8,392 nucleotides of DNA from Deltaproteobacteria bacterium RBG_13_61_14 (GTDB taxonomy: Bacteria > RBG-13-61-14). The translations under genes and the position numbers were made by a program. The stretch spans positions 1-8,392 of the forward strand of contig MGQK01000107.1 in the NCBI GenBank assembly GCA_001797815.1, given 5' to 3'. Positions 1 to 8,392 of this stretch are shown here, one piece after another (within the stretch, counting starts at the first letter, position 1; each line of letters opens with the position of its first letter). The notes beneath the pieces were generated by a model. That model was not told the origin of the DNA and made no database searches. It was given only the letters and a program-made list of their open reading frames with translations.

Positions 1-3
1 CAT

Positions 4-48
4 CGTTAATCTAATATTTGGGGTCAGACCCCAAATATTAGATTAACG
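4..48. repeat. Perfect 45-bp palindromic element
   Basis: Two 22-bp arms (4-25 and 27-48) are exact reverse complements around a single A at 26. The core reads GGGGTCAGACCCC and is flanked by AT-rich arms. On the minus strand the TAA stop of the gene at 43-585 lies within the outer end of the arm, so the element supplies the last codon and the stop. A degenerate relative lies at 3231-3271. Palindromes of this kind resemble REP-like sequences that are mobilised in trans by REP-associated tyrosine transposases, but no such gene is in the window, so that link is inference. The hairpin could also act as a 3'-end structure for the gene's mRNA. Confidence 0.85.
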
Positions 49-837: not shown

Positions 838-876
838 GATGGAAAGTGGAAAGTCTTAGAGGATGCGCGGAAGAAT

Positions 877-898
877 GCGCGGGTGCCCGCACCCGCGC
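877..898 (+). repeat. 22-nt palindrome, intergenic copy
   Basis: Arm GCGCGGGTG (877-885), loop CCCG (886-889), then the exact complementary arm (890-898). The same arms with a 4-nt loop recur three times within the coding region at 8211-8372. Reading those on the minus strand, all four share the loop pattern CCCN, so the element has a consensus orientation. This copy is on the plus strand. Confidence 0.8.
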
Positions 899-935
899 CC
901 CGAAAGTCAGGCCGCGCCCCGGGAGTCTTGCTGAA

Positions 936-1884: not shown

Positions 1885-3234
1885 TTGGGCAGGCGCGCCC
1901 TGGCCCTGGCAGGGTTGGGGTGCGCCTTGCTTTTACTGGGGTCCGGCTCGAGCTGCAAGGAGCGGGGGGAAGCGCCGGCTCCCCAGGCCATCACCTTGAT
2001 GGGCAACGCGGTCAAGGGCGGGATCAACTCCCAGGTGGCGGAGTGGTATGAGGAAGTGCTGCCCGAGGTGGAGCGGGAGTTGGGGTTCCCGGTCCGCTAC
2101 CAGAGCGCCGGGATCCCGGACCAGGACTTCAAGGCCCGCGCCGCCCTGGATATCAAGAGCGGCAAAGGGCCGGACATCCTGGACCTGGACCAGTTCTGGA
2201 TCCCGGAGTTCGCCGAAGCCGGATTCCTGCTCCCGCTGGATTCCTATTACCAAGCCTGGCCCGACCGCGACCAGTATTACCAAGGCGTCCAAAAGATGGG
2301 CCAGTATGCCGGCCACACCTACACCGTGGTCTGGAACGCCGACCTGCGGCTCCTCTTCTTTCACCAGCCCATCCTTTTGGCGGCCGGGATCCCGCTGCCC
2401 TGGCAGCCCCGGAGCTGGGGCGACATCATCGCCGCGGCGAAAAAGATCAAAGCCAGTCAGCCGGGGGTCACGCCCCTGCAAGTGGACGCCGGGGTGGAAA
2501 TGGGCGAGGCAACCACCATGCAGGGCTTTTACATGGTCCTGCTGGGGGCGGGCGGCCGACTCTATGACCCGGAAGGCCGGCAGTGGATCGCGTCCAGCCC
2601 GGCCTTGCGCCAAGCCGCGGAGTTCTACCGCCGCATCTACCAGAAGGACAAGCTGGCCGATGCCGAGCTCCAGGTGTCGGCCAAGGCGCGGGACAAGTCC
2701 TTTGAGCGGTTCCAGAAAGGCCGGATCGCCATCTACCTGGAGAGCACGTGGTTCTACAACTCGGTGATCGAGCCGACCGGCACCTGGGGGATCCCGGACC
2801 GGGACCAGCGCATCGGCTGGGCCTACATGCCCCGGGAGACGGCCGGCGAGACCGGCGCCATGAACTGGGTCTCGATCTCCGGGGGGGACGGCCTGGTGAT
2901 TAACCCCAACTGCTCCCAGCCGGAGCGGGCCTGGAAGGTGATCGCCGCGCTCAATACCCTGGACCGCCAGGCGCGCCTCTTTGCCAAGAAACCCTTTACT
3001 CCCACCCGGCGCGACCTGGCCGCGTTGCCCCAGGTGCGGAAAAATCGGTTTATCGCCGAGACCGCGGAGGCGCTGATGCCCGTCACCACCTCCCGGCCCG
3101 GACTGCCCGAATACCAGGAAATCTCCTTCCAGGTTCAGCTCCTGACCGAGCGCATCGCCACCGGACAAATGAGCGTGGACCAGGCGCTCGAGGCCTATGC
3201 CCATGAAGTGAAACAGGTGGCAAGACATCCTTAA
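1885..3234 (+). CDS. ABC transporter extracellular solute-binding lipoprotein, family 1 (sugar type)
   Basis: This is probably the ligand-capture subunit of a carbohydrate-type ABC importer, anchored outside the inner membrane. With the TTG at 1885 the protein has 449 residues and a compact lipoprotein signal: GRR, then a hydrophobic run, then GSGSSC with the lipid-bearing Cys at residue 24. The lipobox is weak because Gly is at -3. No good Shine-Dalgarno precedes it. Other in-frame starts are TTG 1810 and GTG 1735, both inside the dismutase gene, so the start is uncertain. Typical family features follow: GKGPDILDLDQFWIPEFAEAG (about 93-113, split here as GKGPDILDLDQ and FWIPEFAEAG), the hinge-like QPRSWGDIIAAAKKI, and GFYMVLLGAGGRLYDPEG. 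No permease or ATPase gene is in the window, so the partner is elsewhere or absent and the ligand cannot be named. The gap to the dismutase stop is 32 nt, with no terminator seen. The TAA stop lies in a repeat element (3231-3271). Confidence 0.85.
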   Translation: MGRRALALAGLGCALLLLGSGSSCKERGEAPAPQAITLMGNAVKGGINSQVAEWYEEVLPEVERELGFPVRYQSAGIPDQDFKARAALDIKSGKGPDILDLDQFWIPEFAEAGFLLPLDSYYQAWPDRDQYYQGVQKMGQYAGHTYTVVWNADLRLLFFHQPILLAAGIPLPWQPRSWGDIIAAAKKIKASQPGVTPLQVDAGVEMGEATTMQGFYMVLLGAGGRLYDPEGRQWIASSPALRQAAEFYRRIYQKDKLADAELQVSAKARDKSFERFQKGRIAIYLESTWFYNSVIEPTGTWGIPDRDQRIGWAYMPRETAGETGAMNWVSISGGDGLVINPNCSQPERAWKVIAALNTLDRQARLFAKKPFTPTRRDLAALPQVRKNRFIAETAEALMPVTTSRPGLPEYQEISFQVQLLTERIATGQMSVDQALEAYAHEVKQVARHP

Positions 3235-3271
3235 TCTAACAAACGTGGTCTGACCTCAAATATTCACTAAT
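3231..3271 (+). repeat. Degenerate copy of the 4-48 palindrome
   Basis: Aligned without gaps to the minus-strand reading of 46-6, 30 of 41 bases match, including TTAATCTAA at the start, GGTCTGACC in the centre and CAAATATT after it. The orientation relative to the upstream gene is the same as in the first copy. The TAA stop of the binding-protein gene (3232-3234) occupies bases 2-4 of the element, exactly where the other gene's stop sits. The outer palindromic arms have decayed, but the central GGTC/GACC pairing remains. Confidence 0.7.
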
Positions 3272-4029: not shown

Positions 4030-4178
4030 TTTAACCACAAAGGCACAAAGACACCAAGAATAAACCGGTTGAGACCACTGAGTACGGGCGCGAGGGGTCA
4101 ACTTGGATTGCGAAAAAAATTCAGCCGAATTGCCAAGAAATCATTCTGACTTAGAGCCTTTGTGTCTTGGTGGTTAAA
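4030..4178. mobile_element. 149-bp MITE-like element with 29-bp imperfect terminal inverted repeats
   Basis: The left end (4030-4058, TTTAACCACAAAGGCACAAAG...) matches the reverse complement of the right end (4150-4178) at 24 of 29 positions, with nine identical bases at each tip. The 91-bp interior has no credible gene. Repeats built from AACCAC, AAAG and CACAAAG words are often dispersed in bacterial genomes. Whether this one is a non-autonomous transposon or only a repeat pair is inference. A related word pattern lies at 5744-5770. Confidence 0.55.
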
Positions 4179-4201: not shown

Positions 4202-4293
4202 AAAAAAAATCGGGGCACGGACTTCGGCGAGCTCCCCTCGGCAAGCTCGGGGCCTGAGCCTGTCGAAGGCAGTCGAGCCGCCAGCCGTGCCCC
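4202..4293 (-). terminator. Long hairpin plus T-run ending the thiolase transcript
   Basis: Nine-base arms GGGGCACGG (4212-4220) and CCGTGCCCC (4285-4293) are perfect complements. Inside them CTTCGGCGAGCTC and GAGCCTGTCGAAG pair at 10 of 13 positions. On the minus strand the stem is followed by ATTTTTTTTA (4210-4201). That is the pattern of an intrinsic terminator about 55 nt beyond the thiolase stop, though the loop is far longer than usual. The internal GAGCCTGTCGAAGG word resembles a dispersed repeat, so a repeat element may have been recruited as a terminator. Confidence 0.5.
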
Positions 4294-8036: not shown

Positions 8037-8392
8037 TTACTTGGCCAGCAGGGCCTCGAGCGAGATGGTGAGCGTGCTGGAGAACTCCTGGCCCGTAGTC
8101 TGATCGCGAAAGGTGAGAGGGATCTTGAGGGCATTGGGCCCCGCGGCCTGGGGAGTTCCCCACCGGGCCAGCACCAGTTGCGCCGGCTTGGGGTTGGCCG
8201 CTGGGGGAGTCGCGGGTGAGGGCACCCGCGCCACTGCCGGAACCGGTGCAGGAGGCTTGGCCGCGGCCGGGGCGGCTTTGACGGCTGGAGGCGGCGCGGG
8301 TGGGGGCACCCGCGCCACTCCCGGGGCAGCGGCGGGTCTGGCCGGAGCCTGCGCGGGTGAGGGCACCCGCGCCCCGGCCGGGGCAGCGGCGG
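8037..8392 (-). CDS. Proline/alanine-rich protein, C-terminal part (cut by window edge)
   Basis: Only the last 118 residues are visible; the frame runs off the right end and its start lies outside. The GTG at 8366 is internal and should not be taken as the start. The visible part is a low-complexity Pro/Ala/Val linker in which ARVPSPA or ARVPPPA occurs three times. A compact C-terminal segment of about 55 residues follows (AQLVLARWGTP, NALKIPLTFRDQTTGQEF, SSTLTISLEALLAK). Its alternating hydrophobic pattern suggests a small beta-rich domain. Such linkers are common in envelope-spanning or surface proteins, but no signal or membrane segment can be seen here. Function unknown. It is the first visible gene of the serS operon (24-nt gap). 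The DNA of the linker is made of palindromes and tandem duplications. Confidence 0.7.
   Translation of the reverse strand, partial: AAAPAGARVPSPAQAPARPAAAPGVARVPPPAPPPAVKAAPAAAKPPAPVPAVARVPSPATPPAANPKPAQLVLARWGTPQAAGPNALKIPLTFRDQTTGQEFSSTLTISLEALLAK
8211..8230 (-). repeat. Palindrome, coding copy 1
   Basis: Arms CGCGGGTG (8211-8218) and CACCCGCG (8223-8230) with loop AGGG. On the minus strand it is read in frame as ARVPSPA within the proline-rich protein. It shares its arms with 877-898. Confidence 0.75.
8293..8316 (-). repeat. Palindrome, coding copy 2
   Basis: Arms GGCGCGGGTG (8293-8302) and its complement (8307-8316) with loop GGGG. This is the longest stem of the set (10 bp). On the minus strand it encodes ARVPPPA in frame. 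Confidence 0.75.
8294..8392 (-). repeat. 57-bp partial tandem repeat in the proline-rich gene
   Basis: Palindrome copies 2 and 3 and the following CCGGGGCAGCGGCGG blocks (8321-8335 and 8378-8392) recur with the same 57-bp offset, equal to 19 codons. Copy 1 lies 84 bp (28 codons) from copy 2. All offsets are multiples of three, so expansion or contraction keeps the frame. The repeat may continue past the window edge. Confidence 0.6.
8351..8372 (-). repeat. Palindrome, coding copy 3
   Basis: Arms GCGCGGGTG (8351-8359) and its complement (8364-8372) with loop AGGG. On the minus strand it encodes ARVPSPA in frame. It lies 57 bp from copy 2, and the flanking CCGGGGCAGCGGCGG is repeated with the same offset (8321 and 8378). 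Confidence 0.75.

Follow-up and report, generated by a model that had tools for sequence, protein, structure and literature searches.

Introduction

GTAG-headed REPs have been described by Di Nocera and colleagues in many phyla, and GTGG-headed ones in Opitutus terrae (PMC3733652). Intragenic REPs lean to genes for DNA repair and replication, and REPtrons have been described as well (PMC3733652). From what is established for RAYTs and for TnpA of IS200/IS605, the substrate of a RAYT would be the folded single strand together with its head, and the cut would be made beside it (PMC2817692). GGGGWSAS TIRs belong to related transposases (PMC3733652). The intragenic repeats of Rickettsia conorii are classed there as RPE-4 and RPE-6, of the CGTC type and without a transposase (PMC3733652).

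The window (the whole 8,392-nt stretch of DNA analysed here) contains a palindrome that had been noticed from the letters alone, once between genes and three times within a gene. The source genome is a 4.74 Mb draft of 132 contigs with runs of N, and the counts given below come from searches and fetched stretches. Genes were called by a simple codon-model script, and some of the resulting host ORFs are without family support.

Results

Palindromes in the window

The four palindromes reported by the sequence-only reading were all recovered (Table 1), each with a loop of 4 nt that reads CCCN in the orientation used there. Their number is far beyond chance (200 shuffles of the window with 2 mismatches allowed gave a mean of 0.11 matches, and 0/200 reached four). 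The observation is thus correct, with two refinements. The repeat unit is longer than the palindrome. In addition, the copy at 877 is in + orientation when judged by its flank, yet its loop is inverted relative to those at 8211, 8293 and 8351. This copy folds as a 9-bp DNA hairpin (z -4.25). A search of the window against Rfam gave no match.

Translation of the minus strand confirms a single shared frame for the coding copies, with all three giving ARVP-x-PA (VARVPSPA, VARVPPPA and GARVPSPA). Their flanks are 64-80% alike over 59 nt, and the three copies may be due partly to local duplication rather than to three landings.

Table 1. Positions of the palindromes, repeat copies and host gene in the window
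Feature	Position	Strand	Description	Basis
Palindrome copy	877-898	+	between genes; GCGCGGGTG-CCCG-CACCCGCGC, arms 9	
Palindrome copy, coding	8211-8230		arms 8	
Palindrome copy, coding	8293-8316		arms 10	
Palindrome copy, coding	8351-8372		arms 9	
REP copy between genes	874..908	+	hairpin at 877-898 with its head flank CCCCGAAAGTC at 899-908; loop inverted vs most copies	model R1, 35.9 bits, E 3.6e-5 for the genome
Degenerate further unit	~911-927		GCCGCGCCCCGGGAGTC, after the REP copy at 874..908	
REP copy in minus-strand gene	8207..8241	+	VARVPSPAT; minus-strand head AGTGG	R1, 44.4 bits; translation
REP copy in minus-strand gene	8291..8325	+	VARVPPPAP; minus-strand head AGTGG	R1, 42.6 bits; translation
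REP copy in minus-strand gene	8348..8382	+	GARVPSPAQ; degenerate head (CGGGG)	R1, 39.6 bits; translation
MglA-type GTPase gene, 3' part	8037..8392	-	Pro/Ala-rich linker with three copies, then conserved C-terminal domain (AQLVLARWGTPQ...LEALLAK)	ORF

Anatomy of the repeat

The unit exceeds 22 nt and consists of a 9-bp hairpin and a directional head, which is GTGG or TTAG on the other strand. Copies have a right flank in common (GCGCC[CA]C[T/C/G]AAAGTC), and on the left a less marked one around GG(T/A)T. On the other strand, two layouts occur: TTTAGGGG-CGCGGGTG-loop-CACCCGCG-CAACC and GAGTGG-TGCGGGTG-loop-CACCCGCA-ACC. The heads of the 63 exact copies are degenerate: TTAG (22), GTGG (19), CGGGG (7) or other (15). 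An exact GTAG head is nearly absent (one copy, L131, is near-GTAG), and TTAG is outside the published GTAG variants (GYAG, GYRG, GTGG). Because heads vary, the strict head-plus-stem pattern GCGCCCCTAAAGTC has only 15 matches in the genome.

As is typical of REPs, the hairpin is kept via compensatory changes. Stem pairs covary: the outer one shows a double change 16 times and a break twice, and in variant copies the stem is compensated as a whole (GCGGCTG/CAGCCGC and GCGGATG/CATCCGC).

In several copies, the loop holds an extra palindromic module around TTCGGCCGTGAGCTCAGCCGAA, and these are mostly 26-27 nt longer than a plain copy. The core of this module occurs 29 times in the source genome and not at all in the sister genomes. 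Four module-bearing copies lie within called genes, and the extra length is 27 nt in all of them, so that the reading frame is kept. Two copies (L160:518-552 and L170:4038-4072) have a long downstream flank in common (CAACACAA...GGAAAGTATTGCAAAATTCTCGAAGA) and are thus both part of a larger repeated unit. The window itself has an intergenic inverted-repeat element at 4213-4292 (GGGGCACGG...CCGTGCCCC, with inner tracts CTTCGGCGAGCTC and GAGCCTGTCGAAGG), which is similar to the long modules found in the loops of certain REP copies (L285, L160). An imperfect 29-nt inverted repeat (TTTAACCACAAAGGCACAAAGACACCAAG) around a 91-nt core is found at 4030-4058 and 4150-4178, also intergenic.

Copies across the genome

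The palindrome is not rare. Its directional core GGGTGNGGKCACCC occurs 63 times in the 4.74 Mb (reversed control, 0), and the full GCGGGTGNNNNCACCCGC is found at 60 places. A covariance model was built on 47 copies, and up to 150 candidates per genome were scored with it. This resulted in at least 111 matches in the source genome, some of which are the two strands of one place; after removal of double counts, at least ~96 distinct copies remain (63 exact and 33 variants). Among the candidates scored in the two sister genomes, none matched in G002 and two marginally in G001. The palindrome is a genome-wide dispersed repeat, located both between and inside genes.

The 18-nt core is absent from 40 other genomes searched, including two of the same order. 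The same 18-nt hairpin core, GCGGGTGNGGKCACCCGC, is found in unrelated phyla, at loci L026, L053, L066 and L081 (Acidobacteria), L094 (Flavonifractor), L027-L093 (Opitutae) and L061-L089 (Victivallales). At the Acidobacteria and Flavonifractor loci, it is followed by CCCTAC, which corresponds to a true GTAG head. Since the flanks differ across these unrelated phyla, we do not claim shared descent of the 18-nt core. Chance is a likely cause in genomes of high G+C, e.g., Streptomyces.

Placement and host genes

Of the 63 exact copies, 37 are intergenic, compared to 18% non-coding sequence in the fetched DNA (p ~5e-13). The family has the size (20-40 nt), copy number and location that are expected of REPs. 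In 16 of 36 copies, a stop codon is within 25 nt of the non-head side. ORFs harbour 26 of the 63 exact and 10 of the 33 variant copies (about a third, in frame). Family support is lacking for the host ORFs of L165 and L179, which look spurious. The RAYT gene of L200 (see below) was missed by the gene caller, so that its internal copy was tallied as intergenic.

Hosts supported by family or homologue include AlaRS, QueC, WaaA, GrpE, KdsB, thymidylate kinase (Tmk), PriA and RecG, an adenine-type DNA methyltransferase, an O-antigen ligase, a YfhO protein, a TonB-like protein and a TPR protein; one RAYT is also among the hosts of in-frame copies. The peptides result from four main frames, while frames that read the element's TAG, TAA and TGA are nearly absent. 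The ARVPxPA frame is the one used in the window and in the TonB-like and TPR proteins, in all cases in linkers; other frames give peptides such as AGALTRA, AGEVTRA and CGCPHPH. The idea that a protein linker is the target is only partly adequate: a Pro/Ala linker has been hit, but linkers are only one target class, and enzyme domains are hit too. Within supported host genes, 13 copies run against the direction of reading and 4 along it, an orientation bias that is only marginal and was set aside.

Comparison with orthologues indicates that these copies are insertions rather than ancestral sequence, and the proposal that a palindrome has been turned into peptide is illustrated by three enzymes; the inserted lengths vary. 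Neither solved AlaRS chains nor the closest same-order relative has the AlaRS peptide SKTLGARVPSPARS (a gain of ~17 residues). QueC has gained ~19 residues and WaaA 10-11 residues compared to their relatives. The peptide DFRGAGAHTRA is missing in two methyltransferase paralogs of the same genome. GrpE and KdsB are weaker cases because orthologues align poorly in the respective regions (a variable N-terminal region and a C-terminal tail).

RAYT genes

The genome has 19 Y1_Tnp matches. Two of these are RAYT ORFs on contig C130 that lie between inverted palindromes (L199: 1287 + and 1830 -; L200: 1396 + and 2173 -), and the bracketing copies are near or overlap the ORF ends. This is the arrangement of a REPtron, a RAYT gene between two inverted REP copies. 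The proteins of L199 and L200 score 91.8 and 88.5 against NCBIfam REP_Tyr_transpos (NF047646; cut-off 80), and the HVH and YY motif, as expected for the RAYT family, is visible in both. A third RAYT fragment, nearly identical to that of L199, is cut by a contig end and abuts one copy with a 3-nt loop. The other 16 Y1_Tnp genes have no palindrome copy at their ends.

The RAYT of L199 is flanked by GTGG-type copies and that of L200 by TTAG-type copies, which suggests that these are cognate pairs. The RAYT of L200 has in-frame tandem units between the HUH motif and the C-terminal part, amounting to nearly 40 residues that are missing in the L199 protein, and a further copy encodes its C-terminus. 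With a hairpin repeat and RAYTs between inverted copies, the palindromes are assigned to a REP family with its RAYTs. The spread of the hairpin to ~100 places was very probably helped by a transposase-like enzyme.

The GTPase linker

A scaffold gap (a run of N) leaves the last gene of the window open where the window ends. On the far side of the gap, this minus-strand gene goes on as an MglA-type GTPase (L166), with the 5' GTPase part located there; the Pro/Ala linker is followed by a C-terminal domain that is short and conserved. The gap (window 8392; L166 ~8379-8404) lies inside the GTPase gene, directly beside a REP copy, and hairpin repeats may have broken the assembly at this point.

An orthologue from a sister family (L205 in G002) is ~80% identical over the GTPase and has its own linker and C-terminal domain. 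Its linker contains three copies of GGGGCAGGACACGCGTGTCCCACTCTTGTCTGCCAACA at a spacing of 108-111 nt, which also encode RVP. GGGGCAGGACACGCGTGTCCCACTCTTGTCTGCCAACA is a second dispersed palindrome; G002 has it at two further places and G001 at one. A separate hairpin repeat (CGCAGACA-CTCT-TGTCTGCG), matched by the outer arms of GGGGCAGGACACGCGTGTCCCACTCTTGTCTGCCAACA, differs in abundance by lineage, being present at ~26 places in G001, at ~6 in G002 and at one in the source genome (C92:10967); in G002, one copy of this hairpin is just downstream of a RAYT (L288). In two families, then, the palindromes found in the linker are specific to the lineage. A unit that had landed was likely duplicated in tandem in each of the two genomes, given spacings that are multiples of three and the similarity of the window flanks.

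The ARVP repeats are not conserved in orthologues, and neither of the two refuting observations named by the sequence-only reading (rarity of the palindrome, conserved ARVP repeats) was made. The GTPase orthologues examined in other phyla have unrelated linkers of varied length without RVP repeats, and the same-order orthologue has a different palindrome, even though it likewise encodes RVP. The initial proposal that a mobile palindrome has colonised a linker is thus supported by a dispersed repeat that is in frame and is missing from orthologues.

Discussion

Origin of the family

The repeat family, the covariation of its hairpin, the REP-RAYT-inverted-REP layout, the in-frame coding copies and their absence from orthologues are observations. 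We are confident that they reflect a REP of the GTAG superfamily which was spread by RAYTs and whose in-frame copies in genes were kept as peptides. RAYTs (Y1/HUH tyrosine transposases related to TnpA of IS200/IS605) would recognise the single-stranded hairpin and its head and would spread REP copies through the genome. Landings between genes, often just behind a stop codon, would be tolerated. Those in genes would survive if the insert is a multiple of three, if its reading frame avoids the stop codons of the element, and if it sits in a permissive loop or linker; the copy would then become a peptide (e.g., ARVPSPA, DFRGAGALTR or AGEVTRA). Selection would remove gene-breaking copies, leaving intergenic copies and those in frame at permissive sites. 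The Pro/Ala linker of the MglA-type GTPase in the window was probably lengthened by one or more landings, and perhaps by local duplication afterwards. We infer that these RAYTs are the actual mobilising enzymes and that the mechanism is single-stranded.

The sequence-only reading had drawn a parallel to the RPEs of Rickettsia, which is not upheld, as the copies bracket RAYT genes, a REP/REPtron layout. A coding palindrome of the RPE kind, with an unknown agent and no dedicated transposase behind its spread, would account for in-frame copies in many unrelated proteins, essential enzymes included, just as in RPEs. We consider it very unlikely, given the inverted copies around RAYT genes, the intergenic location of the majority of copies and the lack of a CGTC head in the column counts, when RPE-4 and RPE-6 are classed as CGTC repeats without transposase (PMC3733652).

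It is also highly unlikely that the palindrome is a host functional site under selection (a terminator, an mRNA hairpin or a protein-binding site), with the coding copies being incidental. A palindromic, dispersed sequence with many copies just behind stop codons would be consistent with such a site, but neither the bracketing of RAYTs nor the tandem and nested copies would be expected, sister genomes have different families, conserved coding sequence has received insertions, and no T run follows the hairpin in the listed copies. For single copies, a host function and a REP origin can both be true.

It is hardly credible that selection favours ARVPxPA as a peptide repeat in Pro/Ala linkers, with the palindrome following only from the choice of codons. 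The copies in the window, the TonB-like protein and the TPR protein are indeed linkers in that frame, and the repeat of the G002 orthologue encodes RVP too. However, most copies are intergenic, other proteins use other frames, RVP repeats are missing in orthologues outside the order, and DNA flanks outside the palindrome are conserved in coding and intergenic copies alike; ARVP as a selected protein motif was rejected on the basis of the frames, the intergenic copies and the distant orthologues. The chance that the in-frame inserts are artefacts of short-read metagenome assembly is negligible: the 132-contig draft has N runs, one directly beside a window copy, but about a third of the ~96 copies are in open frames, 4 of 6 frames are used, and stop-bearing frames are nearly absent, whereas random joins would break frames.

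Returning to REPs spread by RAYTs, it is tempting to speculate that this process is a recurring source of in-frame insertions in the order, that two unrelated REP-type palindromes entered this one GTPase linker independently of each other in sister families, and that RAYTs, not an unknown agent, are a general cause of protein-coding palindromes. This extension is tentative, and we would sooner doubt it than rely on it.

Significance

The family adds one more to the REPs, of which GTAG-type and intragenic ones are already known. It stands out by the combination, within one genome, of coding palindromes with bracketed RAYTs, RAYT self-insertion and frame-keeping nested modules, and by a second lineage that fills the same linker with another palindrome. 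Coding palindromes are thereby tied to a named transposase family in one genome, including those in essential enzymes and in the transposase itself. This provides a natural system for studying how REPs move and how often mobile DNA becomes protein sequence. To judge from the orthologous linker of the sister family, with its different palindrome, some linkers may be landed on repeatedly.

Comparison with known systems

As in RPEs, palindromes are inserted in frame and add peptides to unrelated proteins (here AlaRS, QueC and WaaA). Unlike RPE-4 and RPE-6 (CGTC-type, no transposase), the element has another head and brackets RAYTs.

TIRYTs and TIRtrons share the Y1_Tnp superfamily, and the genome has 16 further Y1_Tnp genes, but the palindrome was not found at their ends. 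Some of these genes share GGGGTCAG-type end repeats. At window positions 1-48, there is a perfect 22-bp inverted repeat CGTTAATCTAATATTTGGGGTC/GACCCCAAATATTAGATTAACG (a GGGGTCAGACCCC repeat lies at 4-48), with a 79% alike copy at 3226-3264. The inverted repeat fits a GGGGWSAS-type terminal repeat of TIR-associated tyrosine transposases.

The closest kind is that of intragenic GTAG-type REPs, which have already been described (PMC3733652), rather than the Rickettsia RPE. Like GTAG REPs and REPtrons (PMC3733652, PMC2817692; e.g., GTAG-20 of Opitutus terrae, with a GTGG head), the family consists of many copies of a short hairpin with an unpaired head, has RAYTs between inverted copies, prefers gene 3' ends and has some in-frame coding copies. 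Replication and repair genes as well as tRNA synthetases are hosts, as in intragenic GTAG REPs (here PriA, RecG and AlaRS). It differs from GTAG REPs in that the heads are TTAG or GTGG, about a third of the copies are coding, a RAYT gene itself has in-frame copies, and a palindromic module of 26-27 nt is nested in some of the loops.
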